This document shows positions 198-5,871 of a stretch of 64,000 bases of DNA, piece after piece. The notes under the pieces were generated by a model. That model worked only from the letters and a program-made list of their open reading frames with translations. It ran no database searches and was not told where the DNA came from. The stretch is from positions 1 to 64,000 of the forward strand of contig JAIQEX010000007.1 of NCBI GenBank assembly GCA_020073615.1, written 5' to 3'. Each line of letters begins with the position of its first letter. Within the stretch, counting starts at the first letter, position 1. The translations under genes and the position numbers were made by a program. Source of the stretch: Terriglobia bacterium. Its GTDB lineage: Bacteria > Acidobacteriota > Terriglobia > Bryobacterales > Bryobacteraceae.

Positions 198-1346
198 CTA
201 CCCCTCGATTTCCAGCTCCACCCAGCCTGGCAGCGTGGCGGGGCGGTTGTTCAGAAAAACGATGCGGCGCGTCTTGGGGAACGGCAGATTGGTCGCCAGC
301 GCGCGGTTATAAATCTGGTATTGTTCCAGGATCTGGCGATAGTCCGGATTGGTGGTGTCGAGCCACGCGCTCTTGGCGGTCAGCCCGCCGCCCCAGCCCA
401 GCGGGAACAGGCACGAGCCCTTCTCGCGCGCCGTGCCGAGCCGCTGCTCCAGTTCCTCCAGGCTCTTGTCGAGCAGGCCCATCCCGGCCCAGGAGGCGTA
501 CTGTCGCTGCAAGGCGAGCAGGCCCGCGGCATAGACGTTCACGGCTTCGAAAATGCGCGCGCGGTTGAACGATTCGGGCCAGCGGATGGCGCGCCGCACC
601 TCGGGCTGCAGGAAGAACGCTTTCTCCTCCCAGGCGCCGGTAAACGAAGTGCCGGGCACGGCCATCTCGGCGAACGACGGCGTGCTTTCATCCGGGCGCG
701 CCCCATCCACCGTGCCGCGCGGGCTCTGTTTCCAGCCCAGCGTGAAGCCGCCGCCGCGCGTTTGCAGGGTAGCGGTGCGCAGTAGGTAGACCTTAAACTG
801 CGAGACCGCGATGGGCGACGAATCGCCGGCTCCGAGAAACCGCATGCGGTTGGCGCCCGCCGGTCCCAGCGCGTGCTCCTCGGCGATTTCCGCCGGCCGC
901 CGCGGCACGCGCTCGCCCTTCACGCGGGCGAGCACCTCCTGCAGCATGCCGTCGCGCCAGTTGGCGAACACCATGCCCGTGCGCAGCGCGCCCTTGATGG
1001 CGGCCGCGGGAAGATAGGGTCCTGAAGCGCCCGCGGCGAACGTGGGGATGTGCAGGCTGTCGCCCATGGCGCGGTTCCAGTAGGTCGAATAGGCCGCGTT
1101 CTCGAACGGGATGCGGCGTCCTGCGAAGTTTTGCGCGAAGCCGCCCCAGGAGGCGAAATCGAGCTTCTCGGCCGTCTTGAGCTGGGTGAGATAGCCCTCC
1201 AGGCGCGGGCCTTTCGCCAGCAGCCGGAAGATGCGCCACTGGTCCAGCACGTTGACGTGGTCTTTCCAGACCATGTAATCGATGGGGCTCAACTTGCGGC
1301 CGTCACCGACCAGCAGCGGGGTCAGGCATGTGAGGCGATAGCGCAT
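198..1346 (-). CDS. csm5: Csm5, type III-A effector RAMP subunit
   Basis: A 382-residue RAMP protein that caps the crRNA-bound Csm complex and takes part in crRNA 3'-end maturation in known III-A systems. The start is the ATG at 1346, which gives the Csm5-type opening TPLLVGDGRKLSPIDYMVW. The longer frame upstream is only csm4 read out of frame. Other family marks are YLPAAAIKGALRTG near residue 110 (the RAMP PGSSIKGAIRT-like loop) and LPFPKTRRIV close to the C-terminus. The start overlaps the csm4 stop in TGATG, implying translational coupling. It is the last gene of the operon before the AT-rich edge. Length is normal for Csm5 and nothing looks broken. Confidence 0.92.
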   Translation of the reverse strand: MRYRLTCLTPLLVGDGRKLSPIDYMVWKDHVNVLDQWRIFRLLAKGPRLEGYLTQLKTAEKLDFASWGGFAQNFAGRRIPFENAAYSTYWNRAMGDSLHIPTFAAGASGPYLPAAAIKGALRTGMVFANWRDGMLQEVLARVKGERVPRRPAEIAEEHALGPAGANRMRFLGAGDSSPIAVSQFKVYLLRTATLQTRGGGFTLGWKQSPRGTVDGARPDESTPSFAEMAVPGTSFTGAWEEKAFFLQPEVRRAIRWPESFNRARIFEAVNVYAAGLLALQRQYASWAGMGLLDKSLEELEQRLGTAREKGSCLFPLGWGGGLTAKSAWLDTTNPDYRQILEQYQIYNRALATNLPFPKTRRIVFLNNRPATLPGWVELEIEG

Positions 1347-3019
1347 CAGTTTCCCTCGGGCAGCGGGATGGAGAGCGCGAACCCGGCGCGAAACACGGGA
1401 TGCGGGAAGCCGTCGGGGGCCACATCGGCGGCCGCCCCGCAGGGCGAGGCCACGGCGTAGAGTACGGAACCCTCCGCCACCATCTGGATCTGCTTCTTCA
1501 ACTCGCCCGAGCCGGCGGGGCTGTCCACGCGGCCGCCGCGGGCCAGCACGGTGTAGTTGCCGCGCTGCCAGTCCACCGCATCGGCCGCGGCCGGTGTGAA
1601 CAGCGAGAGCAGCCAATGGGACTGAAAATCAGGGGCCGGGGGCTGGGGGCCAGGGGCCGGGGATGGCGGACCGGGCTCGTCGGGAACGGGCGGTTCCGGT
1701 TCGGGCGCCGGAGGCAGTTCGGGTTCAGGATCGGGAGGCGGCAGGCCGGGTTCCGCGGGCGGGGGGCCACCAGAATCGGGGGCCGGGGCTAGGGGGCCGG
1801 GGGCCAGGGGCTGGGGGCCGGGGGCCAGGGGTCGGGGGCCGGGGCTAGGGGATTCGGCTTCCATTGTCAGTTCGGCCTCGGCCGGCTCGGGTGGAGGGGC
1901 CGGCGGCAAGACTTCCGCGGCTTGGGGGCCGGGGGCCGGCGATTCGGACTCCATGGCCAGCTCGGCTTCGGACGGCTCCGATGGAAGGGCGGGCGGCACG
2001 ACTTCGGCGGGCTGAGGACTGGGGGCCGGCGATTCGGACTCCATTGCCAGCTCGGCCTCGGACGGCTCCGATGGAGGGGCTGGCGGCAAGACTTCCACTG
2101 CCTCGGGACCGGGTGCCGGGGATTCGGACTCCATTGCCAGCTCGGCCTGGGACGGCTCGGCTGGTTCGTGAGCCTCCGGTGACGGGAGCGGCGCACGCGC
2201 TGCCATTTCGGTGTCGGGCGCCAGAACGGCCGCTGACAGGACTTCGCCGTCCGCGGGCTCCGGCGATTCGGCCGCGGCCGTTCCCCGGCCCCCGGCCCCT
2301 GGCCCCCGGCCCCCGTCCAAAACCATTTCCGGCAGCATGCCCTCGAGGAACTCCGGGGCTTCCGACCGTCCCCAGCCGCGCGAACGCTCGCCGCCGAAAC
2401 CCGAGTCGGCCAGCAGCCGGAATGCCGCGGTCACCGGGTCGCGCCAGCGCGCTTGCGCCGCTTCATCGCGGAAGGAGGCGACCGTCCACAACCCGCACCC
2501 GGGACGGAACTCGAGGCAGGCGGTCGCGTGCCGCTCGACGGCGCCGCTGAGGCGGTCCACCGCGGCCGATGAACGCACGCCGACGCGGAACGGGCCGGGG
2601 CTGCCGGCGGGCACCAGGCATTCGCTGGCACCATCCACGCTCCAGTTGCTCTCCTGGAGCGGTTGCCGCGCCAGGATGGCCTGCACAATGCCTAACGGCA
2701 CGAACCGGGCGCTCTTCCAACGCACGTGCGCCGACATCAGGGCGGGCGAGGTGGGCGGCCAGATGGTTCGCGGCGGAACGATCAGGCGGAGTTCTTCGAG
2801 AAACGGGAAGCAGGAGCTGAAGCACACCGCCGTCTCGCCCTGCCGCGCGGTCGCTTCCAGCCACTCGTCCAGCCAGCCGAAACGCGCCATGGCGGAGGTG
2901 ACCGCGGCGTAGAGCGAGTCGCTGTGGTAGATTACGTCCACGCGGTTGCGGGCGCCGGAATCGGGTCCGATGCGCCACGGCCCGGAGGGACGGAGTTTGA
3001 CGACCAGTCCCGGATTCAT
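1346..3019 (-). CDS. csm4: Csm4 with a giant proline-rich repeat insertion
   Basis: Csm4 binds the 5' handle of the crRNA and contacts Cas10 in type III-A complexes. Usual length is about 300 residues; this one is 557. Residues 1 to ~230 carry the first RAMP fold (opening VVKLRPSGPWRIGPDSG, then a glycine-rich GFGGERSRGWGR loop). Residues ~467-557 carry the second half (HWLLSLFTPAAADAVDW, later MVAEGSVLYAV). Between them lie ~235 residues of Pro/Glu/Ala/Ser low-complexity sequence, including a 30-residue unit with the core AELAMESESPAP repeated about four times, then a PGP/LAPGP run. The frame is open throughout and both halves look intact, so the insert is translated in principle. The start ATG at 3019 overlaps the csm3 stop (TAATG). 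Upstream in-frame codons are csm3 antiphase and were discarded. Confidence 0.9.
   Translation of the reverse strand: MNPGLVVKLRPSGPWRIGPDSGARNRVDVIYHSDSLYAAVTSAMARFGWLDEWLEATARQGETAVCFSSCFPFLEELRLIVPPRTIWPPTSPALMSAHVRWKSARFVPLGIVQAILARQPLQESNWSVDGASECLVPAGSPGPFRVGVRSSAAVDRLSGAVERHATACLEFRPGCGLWTVASFRDEAAQARWRDPVTAAFRLLADSGFGGERSRGWGRSEAPEFLEGMLPEMVLDGGRGPGAGGRGTAAAESPEPADGEVLSAAVLAPDTEMAARAPLPSPEAHEPAEPSQAELAMESESPAPGPEAVEVLPPAPPSEPSEAELAMESESPAPSPQPAEVVPPALPSEPSEAELAMESESPAPGPQAAEVLPPAPPPEPAEAELTMEAESPSPGPRPLAPGPQPLAPGPLAPAPDSGGPPPAEPGLPPPDPEPELPPAPEPEPPVPDEPGPPSPAPGPQPPAPDFQSHWLLSLFTPAAADAVDWQRGNYTVLARGGRVDSPAGSGELKKQIQMVAEGSVLYAVASPCGAAADVAPDGFPHPVFRAGFALSIPLPEGN
1621..2165. repeat. Tandem and G-rich repeats inside csm4
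   Basis: A 90-base unit recurs exactly in phase, with its landmark GATTCGGACT (plus strand) at 2121, 2031 and 1941 and a variant at 1851, so about 3.5 copies lie between 1851 and 2165. From 1621 to 1850, and again near 1925, 2020 and 2285-2315, the plus strand carries runs of four or five G separated by two bases (GGGGCCGGGGGCTGGGGG type). The G-rich strand is the template strand of csm4 and could form G-quadruplexes. Because the 90-base period is a multiple of three, copy-number changes would keep csm4 in frame. Confidence 0.9.
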
Positions 3020-3855
3020 TACTCCTCGCGCAGGAACGAAAAAGCGGAATCGGCGACGGCGGTCTGGATGGCGGCCAGCGTAGCCCCCGCGGCGATCTCT
3101 TTTTCCGCGGCCCCGGAGGCGTAGTGGTTCTTGCCGCGCCACACCAGGCGCAGCTTGGAGAAGCTCACGCGGCCGCTGCCGCGCGAGCCGCCGCCGCCCA
3201 GGGCGTCGTCTTCGAGCAGCCGCAACCCCTCGAGCACGCGCAGCACCAGCGGGGCATCCTCTTCGCAGAGCACATCCACCACCAGGCGCGTCTTGAAGCG
3301 CGCACCGGCGGGCACGCGCTCGAGCGTGCGCGGATTGGCCTGCGAGGTGATGCGGTCGATGGCATTCTCGCTTTTCACCTCGGTGAGCTCGTCGTCCAGG
3401 TTCTCGCGCATCTGGGGGGTGATGCTGGCCGGATCGAGCGGCGCGTCGAAAACCGCCAGGCGCGCGGGCGTGGCTTGCGTGGTGTCGAGCGTCTCGCCCT
3501 GCACCCGCTCCATGCGGCCGGGATTGCGTCCGAACAGCACGCAGATGTCGTCGTCGGGACGGTCGCTCTGGTGGATGCGCACTTCCTGTCCCTTGCGGCG
3601 CGAAAGGTAGACCAGCTCGGCGGGCACGGCCAGGCCCGAAGTCTGCTCCAGCAGCGAGCGGATCTTGCCGCGCAGCGAACTGCCTGGCACGTACGGACGG
3701 CCGAATGCGTCCTTGACCACGGGGTTGTCGGAACCGCCGATTTCAAGCGACCCTTTGCCCGCCCCCACGTGCAGCCCGGTTTCGCACGTCATTTCGCCTT
3801 CGAGGATCAGCTTGCCGATGAGTTTCAACTCGGTTTGGGAGGTATGTGCGCTCAT
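3019..3855 (-). CDS. csm3: Csm3, target-RNA-cleaving backbone subunit
   Basis: A 278-residue backbone RAMP subunit of the Csm complex. In known systems several copies line the crRNA and each cuts target RNA at 6-nucleotide steps using a conserved aspartate. The motif IGGSDNPVVKD places that aspartate at D43, equivalent to D33 of well-studied Csm3 proteins, so RNA cleavage should be intact. It is followed by the signature VPGSSLRGKIRSLLE (residues ~56-70) and the glycine-rich loop GGGGSRGSGRVSF near residue 220. The start ATG at 3855 lies 3 bases after the csm2 stop, and the end overlaps the csm4 start. Length is typical to slightly long, with a 30-residue C-terminal extension. Confidence 0.93.
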   Translation of the reverse strand: MSAHTSQTELKLIGKLILEGEMTCETGLHVGAGKGSLEIGGSDNPVVKDAFGRPYVPGSSLRGKIRSLLEQTSGLAVPAELVYLSRRKGQEVRIHQSDRPDDDICVLFGRNPGRMERVQGETLDTTQATPARLAVFDAPLDPASITPQMRENLDDELTEVKSENAIDRITSQANPRTLERVPAGARFKTRLVVDVLCEEDAPLVLRVLEGLRLLEDDALGGGGSRGSGRVSFSKLRLVWRGKNHYASGAAEKEIAAGATLAAIQTAVADSAFSFLREE

Positions 3856-3858
3856 GCT

Positions 3859-4395
3859 TTACTCGTTGTAGGCCACGATGGCCTCGAAAAGATCCTTGAA
3901 CCGTTCGTACCCGCGGATGTCGTTCTTGCGCGTCACCTGGAGCAGCAGTTTTTCCAGTTGATCCAGGCTGCGCAGGCCGTGCCGCGCGATGGTATAGGCC
4001 AGGCGGGCGCGCAGCATGACGAACTCGTGCTGGCGCTCGCTTTCGGGCGCGCGCACGGCGCGCCGGACGGCGCTGTAGAGGCGCCGCAACTGGCTCTTGG
4101 TGCCCGAATCCATATCGCGCATGCGGCTGACAATGGCGTGCGCCTGATTGTCCACGTACAGGCTGTCGCCGATGAGTTTTTCGAGCTCGATCTCGGGCGG
4201 GCCCTCGAAGCGACCGCGCTCGAAGCCGCGGCGGTCTCCGCGGTCACCGCGGTCGCCCCGCTCGCCTCGGTCGCCGCCCGGCCGCTCTCCGCCCGGACGC
4301 TCTCCGCCCGGCCGGTCGCCGCGCGGCCCTCCCTGCGGGCCGCGGCCCTCGCGCGGGGGACGGGTTTCCTTCCGTTGCTCCTGCTCTTGTGCCAT
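3859..4395 (-). CDS. csm2: Csm2 with Arg/Gly-rich disordered N-terminal tail
   Basis: The small helical subunit that forms the inner filament of the Csm complex. Usual length is about 120-150 residues; this protein has 178. Residues ~65-178 form the helical Csm2-like part (IVSRMRDMDSGTKSQLRRLY, then LRARLAYTIARHG, ending in RYERFKDLFEAIVAYNE-like sequence). Residues 1-~62 are almost only Arg, Gly, Pro, Asp and Glu, in short repeats such as GGERPGGERPGGD and RGDRGDRGDRRG. The tail is polyampholytic, with nearly balanced R and D/E, rather than simply basic. Assignment to Csm2 rests on position between cas10 and csm3 and the helical C-terminal half. The start ATG at 4395 sits 3 bases from the cas10 stop. 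Confidence 0.85.
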   Translation of the reverse strand: MAQEQEQRKETRPPREGRGPQGGPRGDRPGGERPGGERPGGDRGERGDRGDRGDRRGFERGRFEGPPEIELEKLIGDSLYVDNQAHAIVSRMRDMDSGTKSQLRRLYSAVRRAVRAPESERQHEFVMLRARLAYTIARHGLRSLDQLEKLLLQVTRKNDIRGYERFKDLFEAIVAYNE

Positions 4396-4398
4396 GTT

Positions 4399-5871
4399 CT
4401 AAACCTCGGTCACCAGTCTGGCCCATTCCAGGGCCACCAGCCCCGCGGGCCGCAGTTTCACTTCCGCGGATTTGCGCCCCACCATCTCGCTGATCAGGTG
4501 GGTGCGCAGCTTCTGGAATTCGCGGTCGCGGGTCCCGCTGAGAATGCGGTTGAAGCGCCTCTGAAACCGCCAGGTGTGCTGCGTCTCTTCGCCCGGTCCG
4601 AAGGGCGCCCCGCCGTACGCTTCGCGGCGGTAGAAGCTGCGCAATTGATACAGGAACTGCCGCGACATGCGGAAATCGTGGATCAGGCGCGTGACGGTAT
4701 CCTTCAACTCCGCGGCGTCCGCCAGGCGCCGCCACTCCAGGATGCGGCCCAGCAGGTAGATGCAGTCGCGGTCGGCCGATTTCGCCAGGTCCAGGTTGCG
4801 CCCCGCCTCTTCGTAGACCGCGGCCAGCGGATAGTACGTTTCCGGCGCCAGCGCGATGGCCATGGAAATGGTCTTCCCTTCGGCGCCTGGATACTCTTTC
4901 AGATTCTCCTCCGTGAAGCGGTGGAAGAGGCGCTGCATTTCGCGCGCCAGGCCGATGAGCGCATCCCACGAGCCGTAGACCGCGAAATCGTCGCCGCCCG
5001 AATAGACGATGCTGACCTTCCGCCAGAACTCGGGCAGCGAGCACAGCACCTCCAGCTCGCCGGCGAAGAACTGTTTGTAGAGCACGGAAAGCGGCACGTG
5101 CTCCTCGATGGAGTGGACGCGGCGCAGGCGCAGCCCGAAGTTATCCACGTCGCCGCGCAGCACGCCCCAAATGGAGCGGCCCTGCGCGCGCCGGGCCAGC
5201 GTCTGCACGGGCGCAGAGGTCTTGCCGTCGTCGGAAGGGGCGGCGTGGCGCGCCAGCATGATACCGTCGGGCGAGAGATTCGAGGTGATGTTCCAGGTGT
5301 GCTTGCCTTCTCCCGGCGTGACCTTGCCGGGCGCCTCGGGCGACCATCCGATGTGCGATGCCTCGCGTACGCGCGCGCCGAGCTCGCGGGCGAAATAGGC
5401 GTCGGCCGCGCCGTTGGCGGCGCGCGTGAAAGGCTGAAACGCCTCCGCGCCGGCCGCCCCGGCGAGCGGCGCGTTGCGCCGGCCGTGGAGCTCGTCGTTG
5501 ATGCGCTTGCGGATGACCGCCCAATCGCCCAGGTTATCGGTGACGCCCCAGATCAGCTTCACGCACCCCGAGCTGAGCTCGGCAATCTGGCGCGCGGCCG
5601 CCTGGAGGAAGCTTTCCGCCGACTCCCGCGCCTCCCCCGGCAGCACCACCAGAAACTGGCCGCCCCCGCTCGAGCCCAGCAGAATGCGGGCCAGGCCCAG
5701 CTCCGCCAACAGGGCGCGCGGCAGCACTTCGCACAGCAGCGTGATCCATTGCGACCGCCCGGCGAGCAGATCTTCGCCGGCGGAACGCGCGGAACGGCCT
5801 TCGGTGGGCCCGGCCAAAAGGAACTCTTCCGTGCCCAGCATTTTACCTTGCAGCAGGATCTGTTCGGGCAT
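4399..5871 (-). CDS. cas10: Cas10/Csm1, GGDD cyclase form lacking the HD nuclease domain
   Basis: The signature subunit of type III systems, 490 residues against 750-850 for ordinary Csm1. The protein starts directly in palm 1 (LLQGKMLGTEEFLLAG, with SSGGGQFLVVLP at residues 67-78). Palm 2 has RGDVDNFG at 239-246 and the cyclase motif SGGDD at 291-295, so cyclic oligoadenylate synthesis is predicted to be intact. There is no HD domain. An in-frame TAA at 5905-5907, twelve codons upstream of the ATG, rules out a longer N-terminus, and a gene on the opposite strand begins at 5954. The region between the palms has no CxxC zinc-finger pairs, unlike many Csm1 proteins. It is the first gene of the operon. 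Loss of single-stranded DNase activity is inferred. Confidence 0.93.
   Translation of the reverse strand: MPEQILLQGKMLGTEEFLLAGPTEGRSARSAGEDLLAGRSQWITLLCEVLPRALLAELGLARILLGSSGGGQFLVVLPGEARESAESFLQAAARQIAELSSGCVKLIWGVTDNLGDWAVIRKRINDELHGRRNAPLAGAAGAEAFQPFTRAANGAADAYFARELGARVREASHIGWSPEAPGKVTPGEGKHTWNITSNLSPDGIMLARHAAPSDDGKTSAPVQTLARRAQGRSIWGVLRGDVDNFGLRLRRVHSIEEHVPLSVLYKQFFAGELEVLCSLPEFWRKVSIVYSGGDDFAVYGSWDALIGLAREMQRLFHRFTEENLKEYPGAEGKTISMAIALAPETYYPLAAVYEEAGRNLDLAKSADRDCIYLLGRILEWRRLADAAELKDTVTRLIHDFRMSRQFLYQLRSFYRREAYGGAPFGPGEETQHTWRFQRRFNRILSGTRDREFQKLRTHLISEMVGRKSAEVKLRPAGLVALEWARLVTEV

Follow-up and report, generated by a model that had tools for sequence, protein, structure and literature searches.

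The window analysed here is a 64,000-nucleotide stretch of DNA from a Terriglobia bacterium of the family Bryobacteraceae (GenBank assembly GCA_020073615.1, contig JAIQEX010000007.1, positions 1 to 64,000). It begins at the end of that contig (C107), which starts right after csm5, the last gene of a minus-strand operon cas10-csm2-csm3-csm4-csm5. The operon encodes Csm, a type III-A effector complex of the clustered regularly interspaced short palindromic repeats (CRISPR) systems, and its Cas11-like small subunit, Csm2, carries an N-terminal tail made largely of arginine, glycine, aspartate, glutamate and proline. This tail, and the complex that bears it throughout the family, are the subject of the analysis; coordinates are provided in Table 1. 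Papers cited by PMC identifier were available in part, and what is attributed to them refers to the available text.

The N-terminal tail of Csm2

Csm2 was identified by the profiles TIGR01870 (43.8 bits, curated cut-off 30.6) and PF03750 (43.3 bits, curated cut-off 24.8). Its ATG is placed 3 nucleotides past the cas10 stop codon, and there is no in-frame ATG, GTG or TTG between M1 and the GTG of V81. An alternative start downstream of the tail, the doubt raised in an earlier sequence-only reading of this DNA, was therefore ruled out, V81 being the first start-type codon and lying within the folded domain.

The structure of Csm2 was predicted with AlphaFold2 using 57 family sequences. The predicted local distance difference test score (pLDDT) was below 50 at residues 1-7, 12-14 and 16-63, that is, over nearly all of the first 63 residues, which bears out by prediction the disorder proposed earlier; from residue 71 on, block means of 83-96 and six helices were obtained. 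When this model, one third of which is tail, was searched with Foldseek, hits 1-20 were all Csm2 or Csm-complex chains, though weak ones (best E value 7.3e-3, none below 0.001), and near relatives in the Protein Data Bank align to the protein only from about residue 101 on. R104, Y134 and R138 were invariant in 57 of 57 sequences. In the alignment register to Thermococcus onnurineus Csm2, taken partly from PMC10289348, they are the equivalents of Staphylococcus epidermidis R49, Y87 and R91, and, according to the same partial source, related systems need their R49 equivalents to cleave target RNA. The window protein has its profile match, six-helix fold, place in the operon and RNA-contact residues in common with the type III-A Csm2 of S. 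epidermidis and T. onnurineus, and differs from both in its charge-balanced tail.

The tail comprises 64 residues, not the approximately 62 first proposed, and the composition given in the earlier reading held: G17, R16, E9, P7 and D5 account for 54 of the 64 (84%), and the remaining ten are Q4, F2, K1, A1, T1 and M1. Its DNA contains short tandem repeats of 9 base pairs (bp; 4227-4277) and 15 bp (4274-4328). Elsewhere in the same genome, only three other matches to the tail were found, with E values of 0.5-0.8.

Genomes related to the window were surveyed for the same protein; their assignment to Bryobacteraceae rests on the labels of close relatives (mostly Bryobacteraceae, Bryobacterales, Solibacter and Acidobacteria, with one or two that are evidently wrong; for two of the matches, L083 and L084, similarity was restricted to the low-complexity tail). 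A PF03750 search across 399 genomes of the class gave matches in 100. The core Csm2 type was present in 96 of the 101 sampled genomes of the family and was not found in the other five (G021, G029, G161, G385 and G395). Four other PF03750-positive genomes belong to other families, and their Csm2 was missed by the core query. Outside the family, Csm2 of any kind was detected in 16 of 393 genomes of the phylum, in open reading frames of 137-219 residues. The 5' end was complete in 94 of the 96 core loci, and all 94 of these copies have a tail (26-186 residues, median 83), with large differences in length among relatives. The tail is thus confirmed as a real feature, both by this comparison with related operons and by a composition test (a 40-residue window with R ≥ 6, G ≥ 6 and RGDPE ≥ 70%; gene calls overlapping csm2 on either strand excluded), which was passed by 75 of 94 family tails and by 6 of the 998 remaining gene calls at these loci. 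Ten of the 19 tails that failed are shorter than the 40-residue window.

The comparison of tails covered Acidobacteriota. Of seven Csm2 proteins of the other kind examined within the family, six have a clear start, and their N termini are short and carry no R/G/D tail; no such tail is present on the second Csm2 of the window's own genome either (135 residues, contig C130). At L011 and L018, Csm2 proteins of other families bear an N-terminal cysteine-rich, zinc-finger-like stretch (CERCGKLF...CSEC) in place of the tail.

Across 22 pairs of relatives, the ratio of nonsynonymous to synonymous substitution rates (dN/dS) was 0-0.06 in the domain and 0-0.37 in the tail, for which alignments are approximate. 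Because the changes between relatives in the tail are mostly silent, it is probably translated. The same ratios, in the minus frame and in 22 of 22 pairs, ruled out an overlapping plus-strand open reading frame as the real gene. Pairwise identity of the domain had a median of 0.84 and a minimum of 0.71 (122 sequences). As judged from these comparisons and the structural model, the tail is a translated, predicted disordered and constant trait of this Csm2 lineage.

Over the last 40 residues before the domain, family tails have frequencies of G.273, R.265, P.115, D.111, E.092, A.029 and K.014; the 44 tails longer than 100 residues have an extra outer part with P.194, A.191 and E.136 that is slightly acidic (-0.04 per residue). 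Charged residues make up 48% of the last 40, and net charge per residue there is +0.075 (standard deviation 0.027, range 0.025-0.15). Its spread among the 84 tails of at least 40 residues was 0.028 vs 0.108 for residues drawn from the pool. Whole-tail net charge runs from -6 to +6 (median +2), with a standard deviation over all tails of 2.8 vs 6.0 for pool draws. Charges were better mixed than in the tail's own shuffles in 94 of 94 cases (mean z -1.57), and arginine outnumbers lysine 1477 to 227 (6.5 to 1). Apart from nearly invariant residues at either end, no motif is conserved.

RNA-binding tails of the RGG/RG class have repeated RGG triads, a net positive charge and aromatic residues nearby. 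The window tail, with no RGG triad, two phenylalanines and a net charge of +3 over 64 residues, departs from that class. Arginine-enriched mixed-charge domains are defined by arginine in excess of lysine, interspersed aspartate and glutamate, and near-neutral charge, all of which are found in the Csm2 tail. By its residue pattern the tail is therefore of this second kind rather than a basic RGG tail. It differs from the known examples in being bacterial, rich in glycine and proline, and attached to an RNA-cutting complex; the likeness is one of chemistry and not of descent, and the tail is known here from sequence.

The complex and its CRISPR context across the family

The catalytic-type aspartate of Csm3 was kept in 95 of 95 loci. 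Median pairwise identities (at most 600 sampled pairs each) were 0.70 for Csm3, 0.48 for Csm5, 0.46 for Csm4 and 0.45 for Cas10. On a Csm3 tree of the 95 loci, 37 label changes were counted for 38 genera, which is the minimum, and therefore no transfer between genera needs to be assumed; 14 of the 15 tabulated genera each make up one side of a branch, the exception being g15. No HD family was detected in the window Cas10, for which Pfam returned palm2 and Csm1_B only. The Cas10 of relatives has a median of 475 residues (range 230-702, 82 gene calls), a statement about length only, the HD profile having been run on the window Cas10 alone. The palm motif was GGDD in 53, GGDE in 12 and something else in 28 of 93 loci. 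Judged by sequence, Csm2 and Csm3 retain the residues of the known target-RNA cleavage site, the window Cas10 is without an HD part, and many lineages have an altered cyclase motif.

Cas1, Cas6 and arrays were surveyed in the better 80 of the 101 family genomes, 75 of which carry the core operon, with array scans that detect exact repeats or repeats ending ATTGAAAC. The exact-repeat scan of 165 records found no array in core loci. It flagged L162, a true array at the operon on contig C130 of the window's own genome, and 13 other loci, whose repeats are either irregular or in tandem, the latter mostly coding and lacking unique spacers. Cas1 was present in 48 of 80 genomes, Cas6 in 70 (mostly unlinked) and arrays ending ATTGAAAC in 17. 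Among the 75 core-bearing genomes, 29 had no Cas1, and 28 of these also had no array ending ATTGAAAC; Cas6 was kept in 23 of the 28. The Cas6 neighbourhoods of 18 other genomes, 17 of them Cas1-negative, contained no array, and those of the window's own genome contained one at C13 and none at C78. A search for two-repeat arrays in 32 Cas1-negative genomes gave matches in three genomes, of which only that in G219 looks like an array. The ATTGAAAC tag was not clustered at the operon (19 matches in 1.23 megabases).

The two arrays of the window's own genome are located at C130 (L162, 13368-15988) and C13 (L184, 1961-3923) and have about 36 and 28 repeats, respectively. The C130 array accompanies a second type III-A operon, one without the tail, that includes the 135-residue Csm2, Cas1 and Cas6. 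In most family genomes a standalone cas6 is found outside any cas operon, for example at L183 (contig C78), L168 and L178.

Interpretation and alternatives

With a probability of roughly 0.5, the sequence comparisons point to the Bryobacteraceae Csm being a vertically inherited, domesticated RNA-cleaving complex that is largely independent of CRISPR memory and whose Csm2 tails act as a charge-balanced arginine brush. The complex would persist in a household role, cutting RNA under the guidance or direction of RNA. In one resolved complex, two copies of Csm2 line the target strand (PMC10289348, in part), and the N-terminal tails of Csm2 would therefore stand along the complex as a short disordered brush. 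Such a brush might make weak multivalent arginine contacts with RNA or other cell components, and neighbouring aspartate and glutamate might restrain them, which would give loose attachment or co-localisation and solubility with RNA not permanently grabbed. Since the chemistry of the tail (arginine-rich, lysine-poor, near neutral, well mixed) is stable while its sequence and length drift, selection seems to act on bulk chemistry and not on a motif. A fuller scenario is offered more tentatively, at somewhat less than even odds: a single domestication of a type III-A Csm at or near the base of the Bryobacteraceae, with non-CRISPR guides, perhaps made by the standalone Cas6, and a Csm2 brush that targets or tunes a cellular RNA job.

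As a rule, CRISPR effectors are patchily distributed and pass from one lineage to another. If domestication is correct, the family would offer a natural example of a household enzyme derived from an RNA-guided complex, with presence in 96 of 101 genomes, a genus-congruent tree, a near-frozen Csm2 domain, invariant ribonuclease residues and often no detectable memory. The tail would likewise be a handle for testing selection on bulk properties of disordered regions, such as charge balance and arginine over lysine, on a bacterial ribonucleoprotein. In the open-licence literature, no paper was found on a disordered Csm2 tail or on a family-wide Csm in these bacteria. For Candidatus Solibacter usitatus Ellin6076, three cas genes (Acid_0892, 0893 and 0895) were described with no CRISPR reported and were read as left-overs in the available text of PMC3174227; if these genes are this operon, an identity that is not confirmed, family-wide purifying selection speaks against left-overs. 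The Mycobacterium tuberculosis type III-A system, whose roles extend past immunity, likewise combines conserved machinery with little sign of spacer acquisition (PMC13334790, in part). It has an array and interference, whereas neither Cas1 nor an array was detected in many Bryobacteraceae genomes. Subtypes III-G, III-H and III-C, with an inactivated Cas10 palm, have reductive loss of signalling in common with the Bryobacteraceae Csm, which unlike them retains the III-A subunit set and shows the loss as a mosaic within one family (PMC12669027, in part).

Several observations weigh against domestication. Cas1 is present in 46 of 75 core-bearing genomes, and the search for arrays in trans covered repeats ending ATTGAAAC. 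An intact cyclase motif (GGDD or GGDE) is kept at 65 of 93 loci and tracks neither Cas1 nor arrays, and an HD-less Cas10 also occurs in other type III systems (PMC8682760, in part). The Csm3 tree was built by a quick method, and 28 of its 92 inner branches are starred. As for the tail, neutral DR or ER repeat units yield charge balance automatically on expansion, and the 94 tails share ancestry.

The main rival, which we hold to be possible but unlikely, is that Csm remains an immune type III-A effector kept apart from arrays, with CRISPR RNAs supplied in trans from other CRISPR loci and the tail an accessory of ordinary immunity. The window's own genome could do so with its arrays on C130 and C13, and the mostly unlinked Cas6 and the frequently intact cyclase motif are in keeping with such supply, as is the common absence of adjoining arrays in several type III subtypes reported in the available text of PMC12669027. 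Trans supply fits poorly with the 28 of 75 core-bearing genomes that have neither Cas1 nor a detected array, with vertical descent and with the near-frozen Csm2 domain. About 97% of Cas10s were predicted active in a 2025 classification (PMC12669027, in part), vs the 65 of 93 intact motifs here.

The second rival concerns the tail, which may be a passive entropic bristle in which slippage-prone, GC-rich repeats are tolerated and selection acts only against net charge and aggregation. The tandem repeats in the tail DNA, the large changes in length and the lack of a motif between the nearly invariant ends would all be accommodated. Chance coding driven by GC content is expected to give alanine, glycine, proline and arginine about equally, whereas alanine is only.03 near the domain; in addition, none of 94 complete copies is tail-less (the shortest has 26 residues), and the arginine-to-lysine ratio, the narrow net charge and the low tail dN/dS argue for more than tolerance, which leaves a passive bristle improbable.

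A classical RG/RGG tail, able on its own to hold target RNA or drive droplets, is the least probable of the alternatives. In its favour, arginine and glycine are the commonest residues, the last 40 residues are slightly positive in every complete tail and at least one RGG occurs in 53 of 94 tails. Against it, the window tail has none, charges alternate near neutrality, aromatic residues average 0.6 per tail, and in PMC9324279 (in part) segregated D12R12 peptides phase separated, whereas alternating (DR)12 peptides failed to do so and bound their neighbours less well. The earlier suggestion, drawn from the RNA binding and condensates of RG-rich tails in other proteins, is accordingly weakened in its strong form: self-driven droplets or plain electrostatic holding of RNA appear less likely on this pattern, and the tail may still show weak arginine-based cohesion.

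Csm4 and neighbouring features

The Csm4 insert was measured as 243 residues between anchors in the window and exceeded 60 residues in 5 of 75 measurable loci, 17 of 92 rows having been dropped where the locus ends 1.95-2.3 kilobases (kb) after the csm2 start. The proposal that two subunits of one complex carry low-complexity regions holds for the window but does not generalise, large inserts having been found, in the measured loci, only in its genus and in three others; the large insert is a local elaboration. Its length is 243 vs 109 residues between the two genomes of the genus, and part of its DNA (1689-2315) is made up of short GGGGCC-like repeats together with a tandem repeat of 90 bp. 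A sharing out of low complexity between Csm2 and Csm4 was considered and rejected (r = -0.14 for insert vs tail length over 92 rows, 17 of which are zero only from the locus end), and no claim is made.

Table 1. Coordinates of the csm operon and its parts in the window (lengths in amino acids, aa)
Feature	Coordinates	Strand	Basis
Operon cas10-csm2-csm3-csm4-csm5	5871-198	minus	sequence and profiles
cas10/csm1, 490 aa, palm motif GGDD at residue 292	4399..5871	minus	TIGR02578, 177.5 bits, profile 490-734 of 753
GAGG, likely ribosome-binding site of csm2, 8 nucleotides before ATG	4404..4407	minus	read from sequence
csm2 open reading frame, 178 aa (64-aa tail and folded domain)	4395-3859	minus	
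csm2 codons 1-64, predicted disordered Arg/Gly/Asp/Glu/Pro tail	4204..4395	minus	sequence, AlphaFold2 pLDDT, relatives
csm2 codons 65-178 and stop, folded Csm2 small-subunit domain (R104, Y134, R138)	3859..4203	minus	TIGR01870, PF03750, Foldseek
csm3, 278 aa, catalytic-type Asp at residue 43	3019..3855	minus	TIGR02582, 201 bits
csm4, 557 aa, 243-aa Pro/Glu/Ala-rich insert	1346..3019	minus	TIGR01903, 114.6 bits; PF17953
csm5, 383 aa	198..1349	minus	TIGR01899, 50.9 bits

No conserved RNA was identified upstream of cas10, where many of the automated upstream stretches lay inside cas10 itself. At L057, almost identical noncoding direct repeats, each of about 75 bp and with no spacers between them, are located at 4010-4319, 1.6-1.9 kb upstream of csm2. 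An AAA ATPase (AAA_22), which we take to resemble ExeA/GspA, is encoded downstream of csm5 in 33 of the 64 loci with enough sequence, for example at 3666-4560 after the csm2 start in L128. Small proteins with tandem proline/aspartate repeats (for example SPLPPPDPWGDGLAI, GPVPPPNPWDDINGI, RPIRPPDPLGFDREI and GGPIPPPWDFDGESQL) are also encoded downstream of the operon, at offsets from the csm2 start of +5347 in L121, +5152 in L122, +5417 in L096 and +4535 in L146. Others were observed at L100, L101, L106, L115, L128 and L156, and two begin like secreted proteins.
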